Source: an uncultured Anaeroplasmataceae bacterium (GTDB lineage Bacteria; Bacillota_I; Bacilli_A; Acholeplasmatales; Anaeroplasmataceae). From it: a stretch of DNA of 64,000 nucleotides. Positions 33,851 to 48,559 of this stretch are shown piece after piece. The DNA lies in NCBI GenBank assembly GCA_949840955.1, contig CATKXV010000002.1, positions 186,001 to 250,000 of the forward strand, in the 5' to 3' direction. Made by a program: the position numbers and the translations under genes. Under the pieces are notes generated by a model that did not search any database, had not been told where the DNA came from, and saw nothing but the letters and a program-made list of their open reading frames with translations. Position 1 is the first letter of the stretch. Every line of letters starts with the position of its first letter.

Positions 33851-35083
33851 TTATGCCGCTTTAGGTGTAGCTACACCAGCAACAATGTCATAGTCTGCTG
33901 TTTGAGCAAGCTTGCCATCCCAGCTTGGCTTTTCACCCTTAGGCATAAGAACGAATAAACCACCTGTTGTACCTGTAGGCGCATTAAATTTACCTTCTGC
34001 ATCTACTGGAATAAACGCTTGAGCAGAGCCACCCCATACCCATGCATAAACATCATACTCACCTTCAGCTGGCATTTCAGCGCCATCCTTAAGGTTTGCC
34101 TCAATCGTAGTTAAATCACATGTAGCTGAAGCAAATGTAAATACATGTGCAGCACCATTTGCATCCCATGCAACTGAATAGTCAACCGTTTGAGCTAACA
34201 TAGAATCCCAATTTGGTTCTGTTACATCTGTAGGGAATAACACGAATAAACCACCTGTAATGTCTGTAGCAGTTTCAAATTTACCAGCAGCATCTACACT
34301 AGCCCAAACACCAGTTCCAGCAGTGCCGCCCCATACCCATGCATATGTAATAAATTCTCCTTCAGCTGGCATTGTAGCACCATCTTTTAAATTATCTGCA
34401 AAGGTTGTAACATCCACAGTGAATTCATAAGTATCTCCAATTTCAGGAAGCTCATCTGTAATAATACCATCTCTTATAAATAAATCATTGGATTGGCCAA
34501 GCTTAGCTGGAGATTCCCAACTAGGATTTTGAGTACCCTTTTCAAAGAATACAAATAAGAAGTTTGTACTTCCTGTTGGAACAGTAACAGATCCGTCCTT
34601 ACAAGGAACAAAAATATCTGTTGGGTTTCCACCCCATACCCATCCATATAACTCATATTCAGCAGGTAATTCATCAATATCCTTTAAGTTATTTTGAACA
34701 AGCTCCATAGTATAGGTTACTTTATCTCCTTCAATCTCTTGAATAGGTGCTGCAATAACGATATTCATTGTTACAGTAATACCCTCATAAACAACCTTTA
34801 TTACATGAGCAGTTTCACTTGCAGTAGATAGCTTTGCATAATCCTCTGCAGGAATCATATCCTTTGTAACTTTAACTTCCTTAGTAGTACCATCACTCAT
34901 TGTAACTCTTAAAGTAATATCAGCAATCTTCTGATCTACCTCTGTTGTTAAAATAGAATTTGGTACAGTGTCTGGAATAACACTTACCTTTTCAACCTTT
35001 ACTTCTCCACTACATGCAACAAATAAGCCACATGTTACTAAAAGCGCAACGGCTGAAAAAAGTCTTCTTAAATTTTTTTTCAT
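33851..35083 (-). CDS. Surface lipoprotein with three WGG repeats, putative starch-binding
   Basis: I start it at 35083 (410 aa) because the signal peptide MKKNLRRLFSAVALLVTC with a lipobox-like FVAC follows, and GAGG lies close upstream. Residues 30-130 look like an Ig-like/bacterial adhesive strand domain. Then come three repeats of about 85 residues, each with NLKD, MPAE-like, YAWVWGG (first repeat YGWVWGG), a Thr-Gly turn, GLFV and PxWD followed by LAQT. Aromatic clusters of this kind suit binding of alpha-glucans, and the gene is the first of the starch operon. No family name is certain. Confidence 0.8.
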   Translation of the reverse strand: MKKNLRRLFSAVALLVTCGLFVACSGEVKVEKVSVIPDTVPNSILTTEVDQKIADITLRVTMSDGTTKEVKVTKDMIPAEDYAKLSTASETAHVIKVVYEGITVTMNIVIAAPIQEIEGDKVTYTMELVQNNLKDIDELPAEYELYGWVWGGNPTDIFVPCKDGSVTVPTGSTNFLFVFFEKGTQNPSWESPAKLGQSNDLFIRDGIITDELPEIGDTYEFTVDVTTFADNLKDGATMPAEGEFITYAWVWGGTAGTGVWASVDAAGKFETATDITGGLFVLFPTDVTEPNWDSMLAQTVDYSVAWDANGAAHVFTFASATCDLTTIEANLKDGAEMPAEGEYDVYAWVWGGSAQAFIPVDAEGKFNAPTGTTGGLFVLMPKGEKPSWDGKLAQTADYDIVAGVATPKAA

Positions 35084-35306
35084 CTTTCCTCTTTCTCCTG
35101 GCATTTTTTTTGTCTTACGGATTTTGCCATATCCACTTTTTCAATTTGTGTAAGACTCACAAATTGCTCAAAACGAGCTTTATATTAAAACCTAAAAGTA
35201 AGTTTTAATTCCAAAACGTGATAATACCCCCCCCGGGCATAAAATGAAGAAAAGAAATTTTCTTCTCCGGGAGAGGCATTTTTAATTTATTTCATCCATA
35301 GTTTAT
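35084..35306 (-). ncRNA. Structured 5' leader RNA of the starch operon
   Basis: About 220 nt separate the promoter from the first gene. Element 1: an 8-bp stem with a 4-nt loop (35246-35253 with 35258-35265) closed by a CTCCCGG/CCGGGGG stem (35267-35273 with 35230-35236). Element 2: a perfect 9-bp stem (35142-35150 with 35058-35066 of the next hundred, that is 35158-35166), whose loop 35151-35156 pairs perfectly with 35112-35117 as a 6-bp pseudoknot. A GGAT/ATCC hairpin lies inside. A TGGCA/TGCCA pairing (35125-35129 with 35099-35103) abuts the AGGAG at 35095-35099. The layout looks like a cis-regulator acting on translation. Confidence 0.6.
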
Positions 35307-40578: not shown

Positions 40579-41364
40579 TTATTTATGATACATTTCATCC
40601 AGCATTTGCTGATATTCTAAGGACCAGTCATAGCTAGTCAAAAATTCTCCATAATAGAATTCATTCCTACCTTCTAAGGAATTCCAATAATCACAATGAA
40701 TGTCCTTTTTATTTAAAAACAATACCGCTCTTTTAAAATCCACAAGAGCTTCCAGCTGATAATCCTTTAAGGTTTTCCTTAATCTCCAAACCGCATCACG
40801 ATATAAGCTTTTCGCTAGTTCAAGAGGCTTATCAGGCCAAAGGTGACAAATGGCATCTGACATAGTTAAGGACTTTCCATTGTATGTAATTAATAAGGCT
40901 AGTAATTCCTTTGATTTAAAGGAGCTAAATTTAACGACATTATGATTCACAAAAACATCAAAGGAACCAAAGGTAATGACCTTTATCTGCATTGGAGCTG
41001 CTTGTGCATTCATTTTTTCAATATAGCAATTGATATCATAGGGCAAAAAGGGCTTATAGCAAAAGCCTAATAAGGCATCTGCGAGCTTTTCTTTAATGGC
41101 TTGTTCATCATGAGTATATGCTGTAATAAATACAATCTTTAAGCCTGGCGCTATTTCAACAAGCCTTTCAGCCAATTCTACCCCATTGATTTTAGGCATA
41201 TTGATATCTAAGAATGCCCCTGAAACCTCATTGCTTTTTATATATTCTATAGCATCTAACGGATTATCTAAGAAAAACTTATATTCAATCTTTATGTCAT
41301 TTACAACCTCAACCAAGAAATCAGCTAAAGCAATTATTTCATCATCAACAACAATAATTTTCAT
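40579..41364 (-). CDS. Response regulator with SARP-type DNA-binding domain
   Basis: The 261-aa protein has an intact receiver: acidic pocket Asp7/Asp8, phosphoacceptor Asp53 (FLDINMP), Thr81 and Lys104. Residues 122-215 are a winged helix of the SARP/OmpR type (FGSFDVFVNHNVVKF, AICHLWPDKPLELAKSLYRDAVWRLRK). The C-terminus is short, so the bacterial transcriptional activator (BTAD) domain of full SAPR regulators is mostly missing. Its start overlaps the kinase stop by 4 nt (ATGA), so it is the kinase's partner. It probably activates promoters with the direct-repeat box at 44086 and 48529. Confidence 0.85.
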   Translation of the reverse strand: MKIIVVDDEIIALADFLVEVVNDIKIEYKFFLDNPLDAIEYIKSNEVSGAFLDINMPKINGVELAERLVEIAPGLKIVFITAYTHDEQAIKEKLADALLGFCYKPFLPYDINCYIEKMNAQAAPMQIKVITFGSFDVFVNHNVVKFSSFKSKELLALLITYNGKSLTMSDAICHLWPDKPLELAKSLYRDAVWRLRKTLKDYQLEALVDFKRAVLFLNKKDIHCDYWNSLEGRNEFYYGEFLTSYDWSLEYQQMLDEMYHK

Positions 41365-43211
41365 TGGTTCGTCTCCTTAAATTTTATGGTAATTGTGGTT
41401 CCCTTTAGGCGTATACTTTTGATATCCACCTCTGCCTCCAGCATGAGCTTAAATCGCTCCTTAAAATTTGAAATTCCTTTAGAATGAGAAGAAATTTGTG
41501 CCACATCAAAGCCTACCCCATTATCCGATACAAGGATATAAATCCACTGTTCCTCCTTATAGGAACGAACCTGGATATAGCCCTCCTCTTTTTCGTTTAC
41601 TCTACTATATTTAATCGCATTTTCTACTAATGGCTGTAAAGATAGAACGGGTACAAAAAAATCCTGAAACTGTATATCCAAAAGTAGTGTAAATTTTTTA
41701 TCTAATCTTACATTTTCAAGCTCAACAAAATTAATAATATTCACAAGCTCATCCTCAAAAGGAATCATATCCTTATCTAAGGCATCAACATTTGTACGCA
41801 AATGCTTAGAAAAGCGAATTAAGGCCTCATCTGCTACATTTACATCCTTATGATATAAATTTTTAATTGCATTTAAGGAATTAAAAATAAAATGTGGCTT
41901 GATTTGTTCTCTTAATATTTCCTGCTTGAATAGGATATGCTCTACCTCTCCCTTATTCAAATCCTTGATTCGTGAAAAATATAACAAAAAGACATTCACC
42001 ATAAGAATCGTACAAAAAATAGCCTCATACCCATAGGAGCTATAAAGAATCATTTCAGAAATATCCATCATCTCTACAATTCCCATATCTAAAATAACTG
42101 AAAACAAAATAAAAAAATATGGACTTTGCTTCCGCTGATGGATAACACTTTTTCCCATTCCAACATAATAAGGAAGCGTAGCTATAAATAATAGAATCCA
42201 AGAAATCCATGTATAATTCGTTCCAATCAAAAAAAGATCTAAAATAAAAATGGGTATCCCGATAAAGGAATAAATTTTATGGTATAGCTTTAAATGCTCT
42301 ACTTCTTTAATTTGATAGACATATACAGCAAGCTGTCTTAAAATCAGAATATAGGATATAAAGGATAAGCTTTGAAATACATAGAAGTTTGTTTTAATAT
42401 TTAAATTCCTCAATAGATTCATCATATCAATAGAAAACAAATAATGAATTAATAACAAAATTAAAATGTTAAAAATGGAAAACCGATCCTGTAAATTACG
42501 ATAGGAATTAAAAATAGAAAATCCGATCAATGCAGAAAAGAAAATAAGACCTAATACAAAGCTTGGAAAAAAGCTAACAAAGGTTTGGTAATATCCACTA
42601 TACCCATCGGTTATAACGCCAGGCATTTGAGTAATGCCACCATGCATATTCATTCCAACTTCAATTACAACCTCTACTATTCCTGTAGCTGGCACCTCAT
42701 AGAACATATCAAAATCCATTTTATAGCCATTTTTATTTTCCTTAAAATTTTTAGAAGCTACCCCTACACATCCAGCCAAAACGCCATTATAATAAACTCG
42801 ATAAGCCGAATCTCCTCCACCACTCTGATAGGTAGGACATAGCCTCGTTCCCTCAGATAAATGGATTAGGGTTGTTTTATAGGAGGCATAGCCTTTTTTA
42901 CCTAAGGCTTTTCCATCAACAGAAAGTCCTGTCCATTTTCCAGGGATTTGAATATAAGCATCCATATCCCCATCATCCTGATCTGTAATAATCCAACGAT
43001 TATAATAGAATTCCCATTGCCCCGTCATATTGATGGAATGGGATCTCTTTTTTTCTAAATTGTATCCCATAAAGTCAACTACACCATAGGAGTTTTCAGG
43101 ATAATTATAAATTTCATGATTAAAAACAGAATAAAGCAAGGCAATAAAAAATCCAAGAAACAGGCAAAAAAATGAAATCAAAAAAATAAAAACCAATTTG
43201 AGCTTTTTCAT
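41361..43211 (-). CDS. LytS-like sensor histidine kinase with extracellular domain
   Basis: The ATG at 43211 (616 aa) is preferred; AAGGGGTG lies 5 nt upstream, and the reading frame before it encodes no known domain. One N-terminal helix leads to an extracellular domain (about 45-205) with the galactose-binding-like start GQWEFYYN and YIQIPGKW, as in 7TMR-DISM kinases. About seven helices follow, then a LytS/His_kinase core: the phosphorylated His in PHFIFNSLNAI, N-box QPLVENAIKYS and G-box SDNGVGFD. The external domain suggests binding of a carbohydrate or ligand, which is inference. It lies between the two regulators of its operon. Confidence 0.88.
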   Translation of the reverse strand: MKKLKLVFIFLISFFCLFLGFFIALLYSVFNHEIYNYPENSYGVVDFMGYNLEKKRSHSINMTGQWEFYYNRWIITDQDDGDMDAYIQIPGKWTGLSVDGKALGKKGYASYKTTLIHLSEGTRLCPTYQSGGGDSAYRVYYNGVLAGCVGVASKNFKENKNGYKMDFDMFYEVPATGIVEVVIEVGMNMHGGITQMPGVITDGYSGYYQTFVSFFPSFVLGLIFFSALIGFSIFNSYRNLQDRFSIFNILILLLIHYLFSIDMMNLLRNLNIKTNFYVFQSLSFISYILILRQLAVYVYQIKEVEHLKLYHKIYSFIGIPIFILDLFLIGTNYTWISWILLFIATLPYYVGMGKSVIHQRKQSPYFFILFSVILDMGIVEMMDISEMILYSSYGYEAIFCTILMVNVFLLYFSRIKDLNKGEVEHILFKQEILREQIKPHFIFNSLNAIKNLYHKDVNVADEALIRFSKHLRTNVDALDKDMIPFEDELVNIINFVELENVRLDKKFTLLLDIQFQDFFVPVLSLQPLVENAIKYSRVNEKEEGYIQVRSYKEEQWIYILVSDNGVGFDVAQISSHSKGISNFKERFKLMLEAEVDIKSIRLKGTTITIKFKETNQ

Positions 43212-43256
43212 TTTTTCACCCCTTTTCTTTATTATACATTTTAACAAGGAAAAAGG

Positions 43257-44054
43257 CTAGGATTTCATATCAATTTTTCTTTTTATCGTAATCCGATCAA
43301 GCTCAGATTGAAACTCTAGCGACCAATCATAGCTAGATAAAAATACACCATTGTACTTATGATCATTAGGATACTTTAAATATTCCCAATAATCACAAAT
43401 GATATTCTCCTTACATAAAAAAATTTGAGCTCTTTTAAAATCAATAATATGACTAATTTCATATTCCCGTAAAGTTTTTCTAAGCTTCCATATTGCATCA
43501 CGATATAATCTTTTTGCAAGCTCTAAATGCTTATCTGGCCATAAATGACAGATGGCATCCGACATATGTAAGGATTTCCCATTGTATGTAATCAGTAAGG
43601 CAAGAAGCTCCTTTGACTTTACCGATTTAAATTTGACAATTTTTCCATTAACAAACACATCAAAGGATCCAAAGGTTTTTATATTAATTTCCTTTTTTTC
43701 ATATCTTTGTAAATCATCTAAATAGACCTCTATTTGCTTTAAGCTAAGTGGCTTACTACAAACACCCAATATATTTTCCTTGAATTCCTCCTGATACCTT
43801 GATTCTATAGCCCCTAAAAATACCAGTCGTAGGTCCTTATGCACCTCAAGAAGCCTTCGGACCAATTCAAAGCTATTCACAGATAAAAGGTTACTGCTGA
43901 TAAAAACACCATCAACATCATTCTCCTTGATATAATTTAGGCTGTCTAATGCATTTTCCTTGAAAAATTTATATTCAATTGTATATTCATTTACAAGAGT
44001 CTCTAAAAAGAAAGATAAGGATACCATATCTTCATCTATAATTAAAACCTTCAT
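43257..44054 (-). CDS. SARP-type response regulator with pseudo-receiver
   Basis: A 265-aa paralogue of the regulator at 40579. The winged helix (about 122-210, GSFDVFVNGKIVKF, AICHLWPDKHLELAKRLYRDAIWKLRK) is nearly the same. In the receiver, position 53 is Ser instead of the phosphoacceptor Asp (FISSNLL), and the conserved Thr81 is Gly; Asp7, Asp9 and the late Lys remain. Phosphorylation by the usual route is therefore unlikely; the domain may act by dimerising with its partner or be constitutively on or off. It is the first gene of the operon, 25 nt after a promoter with the SARP-like box. Confidence 0.85.
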   Translation of the reverse strand: MKVLIIDEDMVSLSFFLETLVNEYTIEYKFFKENALDSLNYIKENDVDGVFISSNLLSVNSFELVRRLLEVHKDLRLVFLGAIESRYQEEFKENILGVCSKPLSLKQIEVYLDDLQRYEKKEINIKTFGSFDVFVNGKIVKFKSVKSKELLALLITYNGKSLHMSDAICHLWPDKHLELAKRLYRDAIWKLRKTLREYEISHIIDFKRAQIFLCKENIICDYWEYLKYPNDHKYNGVFLSSYDWSLEFQSELDRITIKRKIDMKS

Positions 44055-44085: not shown

Positions 44086-44116
44086 ATTCTAGCATTTCAA
44101 GTGCTAAAAAAGTGCC
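44086..44116 (-). promoter_or_regulatory. Promoter with SARP-like direct-repeat box (regulator operon)
   Basis: On the minus strand: GGCACTT, 4 nt, AGCACTT, 7 nt, TAGAAT (-10 at 44086-44091). The heptamers start 11 bp apart and occupy the -35 region, where no sigma-70 -35 hexamer is found. The same arrangement recurs at 48529-48559. SARP activators are known to bind such heptamer repeats at this distance from the -10. Confidence 0.75.
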
Positions 44117-44189
44117 AAAACCAAATTGAATAAGCTTTATAAATGAAAAAGAATCACAAAAAAATAAAACTGTAAAAGATATTTTTATA

Positions 44190-44247
44190 AAAAAAGATAA
44201 CCCCTATAAAGTAGAATACATACCTTTTGTGTACCTACTTTATAGGG
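44190..44247 (-). terminator. Terminator of the LRR lipoprotein gene
   Basis: A perfect 13-bp stem (44202-44214 with 44235-44247), followed on the minus strand by ATCTTTTTTTAT. It lies between the LRR gene and the promoter of the regulator operon. Confidence 0.78.
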
Positions 44248-44284
44248 TTTATTCTCGTTTCAATTATAAGGATTCTTTCCTATT

Positions 44285-47200
44285 TTACCAGTTGACAGGA
44301 TATCCATCAACATAGTGCCAATAATTTCCACTATTTGCTGGTTCTTCTTCTGAATAAAAGTTAACTTTGGCTGTAGTTAATGGAGCATTATTCATTCCTT
44401 TTGCTACTTTTTGCCATTCCTCATAAGTTCCTGTATAAAAAATTTCTGACAAATTCGTACAGCCATCAAATGCAGAATTTCCAATCCATACAACGCTTTT
44501 TGGTAAGATAATTCTACTTAAAAAGGTGCTTCCAATATAAGCATAGGCATGGATAATTTTTGTCTGATTATGAATTTCTAAAGTACTTACTGTTCTATCT
44601 GGTTTAACAAATATAACATACGGATTTTCTTCATTTCCCAAATATAATCCATTCTTATATTCATTATAGACTAAATTTTTACATTTATCTAAACCATCAT
44701 CTGAGGAGTTCATATATAAGGAACGAAGGCTATCTGGTATGCTTAAATGAGTTAATTGATTGCAGCCACTAAATGCATAATCCGCTATCATAACCATACC
44801 CTCAGGTAAAATTATCGTGGTTAAATTCCTGCATCCCATGAAAGCCTTGCTAGTTACACCTAAGCCCCCAGTAACGATAACTTCTTTAAGACTAGCTGGA
44901 ACAGATTTACTATTATCAGATGCCTTGTTAGCTCCAAAAATATAACCGAAATGCATATATTGACTATCGGCACCACCTCCAATAAAAGGTATAGTTATAC
45001 TTCCTAAATTAGCACATCCTATAAAGGCAGCCAGTCCAATACTAGTTAAACTGCTAGGTAAAGACAGGTTACTAAAGCCACAATAAGCAAATGCCCTTTC
45101 TCCAATACTCAATAAAGTGTTTGGCAACTCAATATCAACTAGATTGTTGCAGTTAGAAAAAGCATACCGTTCTATACCAGATAAAGTAGAAGGTAGTAGT
45201 ATTTTCGTTATATACTTACAGCCAGAAAATGCTCCTGCTGGTATAATTTCTTCTTTTGTAATGGCAACCTCAGTTAGGCTTTCAGGCACTAAGCTGTTAT
45301 CCCCAAAAAGATATCCAAAGGTTTTATTCTCAGTATCATTTATACTTTTACCTATAAACGGAATTGATATTTTTTTAAGATTCTTAGCATTTTTAAGTAT
45401 TCCACTTCCAAACTGTTCAACCGTATCAGCGAACTCTAAAGTTTCTAAATGTATTAATACACCTATAACCTCTGTTTGATTTTTATTATAAATAATTCCA
45501 TTTGTTATACTATAATAAGGATTCTCATTAGATATTTCTAAATTCTTTAAATTAGAGCATGTATCAAATGATCCAATTTCAATATCTTTTAAGGTTGCTG
45601 GAAGCATTAAATTTACTATGGAAGAATAATCTTTTAAAGTTTTCTTGTCTATAGCCTCTCCTCCCAATAATACGATGTCCGTTATTGTTTTTATAGGAAA
45701 TAAATCCAAGGAATGAATAGATAAGGATACTTTTATCAATTGATTACAGCCTGTAAATGCATCCGGACAAATAACCTTACAATCCTTAGATATTGTTACT
45801 TCTGTTATGCTTTTATCCATAACATCTACTAAAAGTACTTTAGGATTGTTGCTATTCCCTAAATAGGAAATTCCATCTTCCTCAAAATACTGTAAAGAGG
45901 TGCATCCTATAAACATTTCAGTTCCAATTTTTTCTAATGTATCAGAAATACTTAATTCTGTTAAAGAGGCACAATCCTTGAAGGCTTCATCTGCTAGATT
46001 TTTTACTTGAGTTAAAATAATACTTTCTAGGGCTTGATATACATCCTCTCCAGTAAAGCTAGATAGAGATAATGCTGTATCCAAATCTGTACCAAGATAA
46101 GGTGTGGTTATCTTTTTTAAATTCGTACATCCTTCAAAAAGTGAAGTGCCAAATTTTACGATACTATCAGGAAAAGCCACAGCTTCCAGTGCTGTACAAT
46201 CCTTAAAGGCATTAGAAGCTACTTCTGTTAGTAATGCACCTTGTACAGTGGAATCTATATGAACCTCTTTTTGATTCCCCTTATAGGAAATCAAGCAGGC
46301 AGTATTCGCATTTGTAATAATATATTCAAAATCATTTTCACTTACCAGCTCTTTAAAATTCAATATGAATATTACATCATGGAAATCACAATCCTGCCAA
46401 AGAGATGGTAGACTTTCATATGAAGTATAGATATAAGCTTTTGCACAATTTGTAAAGGCATTTTTATCTATGGTTACAATGGAGGTTCCAACATGAAACT
46501 CAAGTGTATTTTTTGTTGCAACAACGATTCGATCCTTATTTTCATTATATAGAACTCCATCCTCTACAACGAAATACGTGTTTTCTGCATCAACCTCTAT
46601 ACTTTCAACGGCTTCTACAAAGGCATTTTCATAGATTGTATGAATATTTTTCCCAATATAAATTTCCTTTGTGGCATCTATGTGCTCTATCGTTGTTACA
46701 GGATATACCTTGCCATAAAGCTTTACTTCATCTGGTAGAATCCCATTAAAATTACTTGTAGTTCCTTGAACAATCAGCTCATTATTCTTTATAACATAGC
46801 GTATTCCATTTTCAATAATAGGTGTTGCAACACCATATACTGTATTAAATTTTTTGGTTGTACCTGCAATATGATTCCATTTATATGAGAATTGATTTGC
46901 ATAGGATTGACTAAAGGCACAATGTATCGTAACTGTGTTTGGTAATACATTAAGCACATTCGCTCCAAAAGCAAAATCCTGCATTGTAACAATCGTAGAA
47001 GGAAGCCATATATCTGTTACCTTTGTACAGTATGAAAAGCTTACTACAAATTCAGTAGCCCCTTCTGCAATATAAAGGGTCGTTACCTCAGACATAAAGA
47101 ACTCTACAGAAGCAACCTTCTTTCCCACAAGAGCACTTGGAATGGTAACATCTCCAACAACCTGACTTCCACTTGAAGATAGGGTGATCCAAGAATCATA

Positions 47201-47512
47201 TTCCGAAATATTAAAATTCTTTGAATATGCCTTATACTCCACACTATCCTCTCGAACCGTTTCTTCATCATAAAAATAAATCGGCATCAAAATATTTTGA
47301 TTCGTATCTGGATAAATGGATGAGGATAGCATTAGGACATAGTCCTCTCTTTCCATGATATTATAGGCAGTATCTCTACCCAAATTTTTCTCATCCACAT
47401 TTTCATACAAAACGTCTACAGGAATAATGTCCTTCTCAACATAGGTAAGAGTATCTCCAAGCTTTTCCTTTTCATAGGTACGATAGCCATTAGGATCTGT
47501 GCCTAATTGCAC
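44285..47512 (-). CDS. BspA-like LRR protein, C-terminal part of a split lipoprotein
   Basis: The frame encodes up to 1075 residues (its first possible start is a GTG at 47512) made mostly of LRR_5/BspA repeats with the pattern AFxxCxxLxxIxLPxxLxxIG, for example NAFTNCAKAYIYTS and AFIGCANLGSITIPF. It ends in an YHYVDGYPVNW-like aromatic tail. There is no signal peptide, and no SD precedes the GTG. It overlaps the end of the upstream lipoprotein gene by 10 nt in the -1 frame. Together they look like one surface protein of about 1,400 residues broken by a frameshift; the split may also be a sequencing error. Confidence 0.8.
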   Translation of the reverse strand: MQLGTDPNGYRTYEKEKLGDTLTYVEKDIIPVDVLYENVDEKNLGRDTAYNIMEREDYVLMLSSSIYPDTNQNILMPIYFYDEETVREDSVEYKAYSKNFNISEYDSWITLSSSGSQVVGDVTIPSALVGKKVASVEFFMSEVTTLYIAEGATEFVVSFSYCTKVTDIWLPSTIVTMQDFAFGANVLNVLPNTVTIHCAFSQSYANQFSYKWNHIAGTTKKFNTVYGVATPIIENGIRYVIKNNELIVQGTTSNFNGILPDEVKLYGKVYPVTTIEHIDATKEIYIGKNIHTIYENAFVEAVESIEVDAENTYFVVEDGVLYNENKDRIVVATKNTLEFHVGTSIVTIDKNAFTNCAKAYIYTSYESLPSLWQDCDFHDVIFILNFKELVSENDFEYIITNANTACLISYKGNQKEVHIDSTVQGALLTEVASNAFKDCTALEAVAFPDSIVKFGTSLFEGCTNLKKITTPYLGTDLDTALSLSSFTGEDVYQALESIILTQVKNLADEAFKDCASLTELSISDTLEKIGTEMFIGCTSLQYFEEDGISYLGNSNNPKVLLVDVMDKSITEVTISKDCKVICPDAFTGCNQLIKVSLSIHSLDLFPIKTITDIVLLGGEAIDKKTLKDYSSIVNLMLPATLKDIEIGSFDTCSNLKNLEISNENPYYSITNGIIYNKNQTEVIGVLIHLETLEFADTVEQFGSGILKNAKNLKKISIPFIGKSINDTENKTFGYLFGDNSLVPESLTEVAITKEEIIPAGAFSGCKYITKILLPSTLSGIERYAFSNCNNLVDIELPNTLLSIGERAFAYCGFSNLSLPSSLTSIGLAAFIGCANLGSITIPFIGGGADSQYMHFGYIFGANKASDNSKSVPASLKEVIVTGGLGVTSKAFMGCRNLTTIILPEGMVMIADYAFSGCNQLTHLSIPDSLRSLYMNSSDDGLDKCKNLVYNEYKNGLYLGNEENPYVIFVKPDRTVSTLEIHNQTKIIHAYAYIGSTFLSRIILPKSVVWIGNSAFDGCTNLSEIFYTGTYEEWQKVAKGMNNAPLTTAKVNFYSEEEPANSGNYWHYVDGYPVNW

Positions 47513-48504
47513 GAATAGCGTTCAATTTCAACTGTATAGAGTCCATAAACATTTAGATCATAATCATAGAAATTGTTATTCGCATCTTTAATTCGTACAT
47601 AATAGAAATTGTTCCCATGCTGAACTTGAGGATATCCCATAGATAATTCCGTGGAAGACCAGACATCAGAGGAATTTTCATTTTCTCTTCCCTCAGCACT
47701 CTTATAATAAACAGCTTTATACCCTGAAGGTAGCGTAATATGACTTTGAATCTTAAAGGACGTTGCCTTGTTGTTCTTTAAAACAAAATCATAAAGATAA
47801 TATTTTTTAGCTGTAGCTTCATCCATTTTTATCTCATCATAGAATCCATTAAGAACAATATGCTCATCGATATATTTTAATCGCTCTAGCGTATATGTCT
47901 GATTGAGCTTAGTTATTCTAAATTCCTCTGTTGCTGTAGAGATAGGAACCTCTTGATAATGCGTTTCATTTTCTATTTTCACTTCCACATTTTCATATGC
48001 CGTTAATGTTACCATAGTCCTTCCTACTGGTAAATCAGCCAATGAATAGGAGCCTTGTGTTTTTTCTAATTCAACTGTCTTGCTATTTTCTCCAGGTGAA
48101 ACTAAGGTTAAGACATATTTGCTAGCACATTTCAATCGGCTAAAGCTCAATATACCATCCTTAGAAATTTGAATAAAAGTGAATTCCTTTCCATCAATCA
48201 TTTCCTTATTATTTGGATCTACCGCATCACAGCGAGTACAATATCCATTTTTATAAGAATGATTTAAAGCTGGAATATCTTCAAATTCCTCCTCTTTACA
48301 TCCACTGCATTTCCGAATCTTTTTTCCCTTATCCGTACATGTAGCAGCCTTTTCTTCCACCCAATTCCCCCAAGAATGAATATGCTCCTCTACGGGTGGA
48401 TTTACAGGTGGATTATCCTCTGAAGGAGGAGTCTTTGTTGAACAGCTACCTAAATATATTAGTAATAAAACAAAAGAAAGTACAATACCATATTTTTTCT
48501 TCAT
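47503..48504 (-). CDS. Lipoprotein, N-terminal part of the split LRR protein
   Basis: The ATG at 48504 (333 aa) follows GGAGG by 5 nt. The signal peptide has the lipobox YLGSC. A Pro-rich linker and a cysteine-bearing HSWGNW / HSYKNGYCTRC repeat region follow; this motif type appears in cell-surface proteins of gut Bacillota. The middle is beta-rich, and the frame stops with TAG after a TVEIERY-like strand. The sequence in the -1 frame then continues with QLGTDPNGYRTYEKEKLG. Its promoter has the SARP-like box, so the two-component system very likely controls it. Confidence 0.8.
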   Translation of the reverse strand: MKKKYGIVLSFVLLLIYLGSCSTKTPPSEDNPPVNPPVEEHIHSWGNWVEEKAATCTDKGKKIRKCSGCKEEEFEDIPALNHSYKNGYCTRCDAVDPNNKEMIDGKEFTFIQISKDGILSFSRLKCASKYVLTLVSPGENSKTVELEKTQGSYSLADLPVGRTMVTLTAYENVEVKIENETHYQEVPISTATEEFRITKLNQTYTLERLKYIDEHIVLNGFYDEIKMDEATAKKYYLYDFVLKNNKATSFKIQSHITLPSGYKAVYYKSAEGRENENSSDVWSSTELSMGYPQVQHGNNFYYVRIKDANNNFYDYDLNVYGLYTVEIERYSCN

Positions 48505-48528
48505 ATATGCCTCCAAAGTTTTTTACCG

Positions 48529-48559
48529 ATTATACCATTTGAAGTGCTAAAAAAGTGCC
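48529..48559 (-). promoter_or_regulatory. Promoter with SARP-like direct-repeat box (LRR lipoprotein)
   Basis: On the minus strand: GGCACTT, 4 nt, AGCACTT, 7 nt, TATAAT (-10 at 48529-48534). Both heptamers, the T4 spacer, the start of the 7-nt spacer (xAAATG) and the -10 position match the regulator promoter at 44086-44116. Confidence 0.78.

Follow-up and report, generated by a model that had tools for sequence, protein, structure and literature searches.

Two promoters in the genome of an uncultured Anaeroplasmataceae bacterium lie 4.4 kb apart and share an element that looks like a binding site. One stands before an operon encoding two response regulators and a histidine kinase (RR1-HK-RR2), the other before a gene for an LRR lipoprotein. 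Do these regulators activate both their own operon and the surface protein through this box? All positions below are those of the window, which is the whole stretch of 64,000 nucleotides that was analysed.

The paired promoter element and its genes

The features involved are listed in Table 1. Common to both promoters are 31 nt of the form GGCACTT-TTTT-AGCACTT-N4-TGn-TAnAAT.

Table 1 Features of the regulator operon, the LRR lipoprotein gene and their promoters (window coordinates).
Feature	Position	Strand	Description
RR2 response regulator	40579..41364	-	Intact receiver (FLDINMP); same DNA-binding domain as RR1
HK membrane histidine kinase	41361..43247	-	His_kinase + HATPase_c; likely ATG 12 codons inside the listed ORF
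RR1 response regulator	43257..44054	-	Degenerate receiver + DNA-binding domain predicted to be SARP-type
RR1-HK-RR2 operon promoter element	44086..44116	-	GGCACTT 44116-44110, TTTT, AGCACTT 44105-44099, GAAA, TGC (extended -10), TAGAAT 44091-44086
Hairpin then T-rich tract, 3' of LRR gene	44188..44258	-	MFE -27 kcal/mol, z -5.0
LRR lipoprotein gene, second fragment	44285..47512	-	LRR_5/BspA repeats, different frame
LRR lipoprotein gene, first fragment	47503..48504	-	Signal peptide with lipobox, N-terminal region; stop after frameshift
LRR lipoprotein promoter element	48529..48559	-	GGCACTT 48559-48553, TTTT, AGCACTT 48548-48542, CAAA, TGG, TATAAT 48534-48529

An earlier sequence-only reading of this DNA had described two promoters of the same layout, and this held exactly, at the minus-strand sites of Table 1. 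Its statement that neither has a -35 nearly held. A -35-like TTGGCA overlaps the upstream repeat of the box, but at 21 nt from the -10 it is too distant for ordinary sigma-70 use. What had been missed is the TGn of an extended -10, which has a fixed place in both promoters and is present in 21 of 21 sites from the genus. Also missed were the loss of the phospho-Asp from RR1, the frameshift in the LRR gene, and the family-wide code, all of which are described below.

In a pattern search with GGCACTTN4AGCACTT, the window holds no match at fewer than three mismatches besides the two promoters. Across the whole genome (2.10 Mb) only these two match at fewer than two mismatches, and the next best sites have two. 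By chance, 0.0065 exact double heptamers would be expected in 2.1 Mb of the window's composition. The two copies are identical over TT and the 18-nt repeat core, and their flanks are only 9% (upstream) and 36% (downstream) identical. Given such unrelated flanks, the promoters are not a recent copy of one another.

Sigma-70 -35/-10 pairs show no excess in the region (17, versus 22.5 in shuffles), and none falls at the boxes. An ECF-type -35 was also considered, since GGCACTT resembles GGAACTT. This was rejected, since the heptamer occurs twice and the -10 belongs to the extended sigma-70 type.

In RR1, Ser replaces the phospho-Asp (FIS.) in all seven species that have the operon, while the DNA-binding domain is still well conserved. 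Lacking the phosphoacceptor, RR1 is an atypical pseudo-receiver protein. A phosphoacceptor Asp was the receiver criterion for a response regulator; it is met by RR2 and also by RR3 (FIDLKMP), the regulator of a paralogous system. The extracellular region of the kinase has no Pfam match. Elsewhere in the window, a gene for a protein of 417 aa (33851-35104), beside a sugar ABC transporter operon, also lacks one.

The LRR gene is split by a frameshift at 47503-47512 in this genome, and is a single open frame of 1219-1488 codons in six congeners. This could be a real loss or an assembly error; the data do not distinguish the two. Given the strong hairpin and T-rich tail that follow the gene, its transcript and the one from the RR1 promoter are probably separate.

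At G000:C8 (about 1.9-61.7 kb, loci L074-L103), the same genome has a frame that stays open for 16,208 codons and contains dozens of LRR_5 stretches; the frames beside it run to 5,592 codons and about 2,100. The genome pattern search found no box before any of these frames.

Distribution of the box

The operon is present in 7 of 11 congeneric genomes, with RR2 cut by a contig end in one of them (G003). A degenerate form of the box occurs with no mismatches at both the RR1 and the LRR promoter in all seven of these species. The four congeners without the operon have no box at zero mismatches to this pattern. Across the sites of the genus, conservation is 0.91-0.96 inside the box and 0.49-0.82 in the flanks; at the RR1 and LRR promoters of these seven species the values are 0.94-0.96 and 0.57-0.82. 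The -10 of the LRR promoters is always TATAAT, and that of the RR1 promoters always TAGAAT or TAAAAT.

It had been claimed that the window's only SARP-type regulators lie in this operon. That is true for the window; the genome as a whole however encodes one more, RR3, which has a variant box (AACACTT-N4-AACACTT) and an LRR gene to itself. RR3 sits behind its own kinase in four genomes, including this one. Most sites of its type read AACACTT-N4-AACA(C/G)T-N8-TATAAT. Such a box is found just before RR3 in all three readable loci (in the fourth genome the contig breaks off at this point). In all four RR3 genomes it also precedes a second LRR lipoprotein gene. This second gene adjoins RR3 in G000, the window genome, and in G001, and is on a separate contig in G003 and G005, so that there the link is in trans. 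The heptamer differences between the two systems go together with differences in the recognition helix, which is LYRDAVW.LRKTL in RR1 and RR2 and LYR.SRW.LIDTL in RR3.

At the second LRR gene, a terminator-like hairpin upstream of the box ends directly at the first Ts of that box (AAAGGGAAAGC..GCTTTCCCTTTAACACTT, in L026/L070 and L027/L071). Terminator tail and putative activator site therefore seem to overlap.

Searching 160 genomes of the order gave 18 pattern matches, all at these regulator and LRR genes, and none for a reversed-pattern control. Among 296 genomes of the class, with at most one mismatch, the box occurs in 10, and the reversed control again in none. A second control, with one extra base between repeat and -10, matched two genomes, neither with the regulator, and hit no true site.

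Close relatives of the regulators, defined by a profile of them at E <= 1e-40, are found in 20 of the 296 class genomes. All 10 box genomes are among these 20 (Fisher 1.5e-13). The value is 1.0e-8 once the genus and G239, which has a site already known beforehand, are left out, and 1.8e-4 when counted by genus. The genomes of the class are related, so these values can only serve as a guide.

Outside the genus, the box lies directly before homologous HK-RR operons (G285, G326, L175) or adjoins one (G239/L178). It also precedes LRR_5 lipoproteins (L177, G304), in G304 with the regulator on a different contig, and in G231 a pair of lipoproteins of which the second has LRR_5. Three sites from the class search have no clear target gene (G251, G215 and one in G285; two of them are in genus g72).

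The sequence-only reading had proposed a search of genome and relatives, and would have been refuted by a box that is frequent at unrelated loci or absent from orthologous promoters. The first was not found in the searches of genome, genus, order and class, and the second not in any of the seven species with the operon.

No box is recognisable in half of the regulator-bearing genomes of the class. Heptamers specific to each paralogue might account for some of these. An identical box-like site, AGCACTTTTTTAGCGCTTTTATTAATAAAAT, lies at position 1501 of L266 and L268, from two species of one regulator-bearing genus. No open frame of at least 70 codons follows it, and it is conceivable that it serves a small RNA or small protein.

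The geometry of the box extends further than its letters. Outside the genus, 88 regulator loci were scanned for identical 5-mers, each with at least two G/C, before TGnTAnnWT. Repeats with a period of 11 are strongly enriched, at up to 17 matches versus 0-2 at periods 10 and 12. Two more heptamer types occur in a neighbouring genus, and each goes with a separate group of regulators. One, CACATGT-TTGT-CACATnn, precedes genes for S41-peptidase lipoproteins and for a small membrane protein; the other is TGCAnnT-TTGT-TGCAnnn. With other heptamers and other targets in this genus, the LRR target belongs to some lineages, and the box geometry is the feature of the family. In five loci there (L243, L245, L246, L247, L250), a CACATGT-type box comes after a related HK-RR pair, together with a conserved gene cluster for a small membrane protein, an S41-peptidase lipoprotein and a short lipoprotein.

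Predicted fold of the regulators

The regulators had also been called SARP-type. Here the sequence profile alone is undecided, with AfsR at E 0.0087, EmbR at 0.017 and the OmpR-family DrrB at 0.005. Trans_reg_C stays below its curated cut-off, at E 0.0072-0.023 for RR2 and E 0.025 for RR1 (15-17 bits versus 26.2); the best score among 53 relatives is E 1.5e-06.

The full-length model of RR2 has a pLDDT of 92.8. Fold searches with it returned mostly receiver domains and were of little use for the effector, which was modelled alone instead (pLDDT 94.7). This domain matches EmbR (2ff4, Z 14.3) and AfsR (8k60 and 8hvr, Z 14.2 and 13.7). SARP alignments overall range from Z 14.3 to 13.6 over 133-138 residues, with an rmsd of 2.5-2.6, versus Z 10.0 over about 93 residues for the best PhoB/OmpR match. 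The modelled structure thus meets the criterion for a SARP-type (ODB) DNA-binding domain, as a prediction.

A complete BTA domain is absent. Only some 35 residues with one terminal helix follow the winged helix, and Pfam gives no BTAD match. The claim is supported by the predicted structure despite this shortened activation domain; with BTA cut to about one helix, this would work like a SARP system without being a full SARP. SARP boxes are 11-bp direct repeats of which the 3' repeat lies 8 bp from the -10 (PMC10936776), and both promoters fit this arrangement, with the 3' repeat at about 8 bp. SARPs activate transcription through contacts with RNA polymerase (sigma R4, beta flap, alpha CTD).

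Proposed circuit, rival readings and known systems

The reading judged likely is that of a dedicated two-component regulon, in which phosphorylated RR2, perhaps with RR1, activates its own operon and the LRR lipoprotein gene. The sites, their conservation and their co-occurrence with the regulators are data; the SARP-like fold is a model prediction; binding, the sign of regulation and the roles of RR1 and RR2 are inferred. In this mechanism HK would phosphorylate RR2. RR2~P, possibly with the pseudo-receiver RR1, would then occupy the -35 position as a head-to-tail dimer that contacts both heptamers along one DNA face. From there it would recruit RNA polymerase to the extended -10 promoter (TGnTAnAAT), replacing the sigma-70 -35 contacts. 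The predicted outcome is positive feedback on the operon and higher expression of a single surface lipoprotein of the BspA-type LRR kind. Heptamer and target would be particular to each of the paralogous kinase-regulator systems.

Autoregulation and control of the LRR gene, as proposed earlier, are thus supported by comparative genomics, with binding, direction and the acting regulator still inferred. As for the compact, self-contained regulon that had been proposed, a small circuit of this kind is suggested by the way the box accompanies the regulator family across genomes. There are no binding, transcript or expression data, and repression through the same site is not excluded. Counterpoints are the regulator genomes without a box, the three sites without a target, the S41-peptidase lipoprotein that replaces LRR as target in another genus of the family, and the LRR frameshift here.

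The regulators might instead bind the box and repress, for instance by blocking access to the extended -10, with phosphorylation bringing relief. The box does abut the -10, an extended -10 can function without a -35, and this reading accommodates the sites, the comparative data and the folds just as well. Against it, no usable -35 exists, the geometry is that of SARP activators (PMC10936776), and the RR1 promoter has a non-consensus -10 in all seven species, as is expected of an activator-dependent promoter. Repression is therefore considered unlikely. Less likely again is recognition of the box by some other factor, either a different regulator or an alternative sigma factor, with the SARP-type regulators as mere targets. 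It is true that a regulator need not bind the site that precedes its own gene. But the box follows the presence of the regulator across 296 genomes, and its sequence differs between the RR1/RR2 and RR3 systems within one cell, also in trans. In addition, the -10 is ordinary sigma-70, and 11-bp direct repeats suit this DNA-binding fold.

That the shared element is a recent promoter duplication, or a chance repeat in AT-rich DNA, can almost be ruled out. The proximity of the copies and their identical core would fit such an origin. The 0.0065 expected per genome, the dissimilar flanks, the conservation in seven species and the variant copies on separate contigs do not.

Returning to the two-component regulon, a bolder version may be entertained as a speculation. 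The asymmetry between the GG and AG half-sites is constant, which fits an RR1-RR2 heterodimer; RR3, a single regulator, has near-identical half-sites (AACACTT, AACAsT). The phosphorylatable RR2 and its phospho-independent paralogue RR1 could then read the two half-sites as a pair, the helix sequence might predict the heptamer throughout the family, and there could be one surface lipoprotein per system.

A SARP-like response regulator family of uncultured gut Bacilli hereby gains a predicted binding site, a predicted regulon and a testable recognition code. It is also linked to BspA-type surface lipoproteins in a wall-less bacterium, where such a switch would alter the cell surface. Because the box occurs in genomes only together with the regulator, it is usable for target prediction in many genomes. 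The RR1/RR2 and RR3 systems, paralogues within one cell, offer a natural experiment in how targets are kept apart after a regulator has been duplicated. In the open-licence literature searched, neither this family of regulators nor its box turned up for Bacillota.

The LRR protein resembles known BspA-type surface proteins, with LRR_5 repeats behind a lipoprotein signal. For genes of this type, no two-component regulator that is dedicated to them and has a box of its own was found described in the open-licence literature searched.

With OmpR/PhoB regulators, these proteins share a receiver and a winged helix. PhoB binds the Pho box, whose units of 7 conserved and 4 AT-rich bp form an 11-bp repeat, as a head-to-tail dimer. 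The differences are the weaker structural match, the sub-threshold Trans_reg_C scores of RR1 and RR2, and a kinase of the His_kinase (PF06580) class.

The Streptomyces SARP promoters (AfsR with its afs box, DnrI, ActII-ORF4) likewise have two 11-bp direct repeats with the 3' repeat beside the -10, and an upstream repeat over the -35 position in an overlong -35/-10 spacing. Their regulators also carry an OmpR-type DNA-binding domain, and the model here is closest to AfsR and EmbR. Unlike in Streptomyces, the domain is here the output module of response regulators from two-component systems of Bacilli, with BTA reduced to about one helix. The promoters have a conserved extended -10, and the predicted targets are surface lipoproteins instead of antibiotic clusters.
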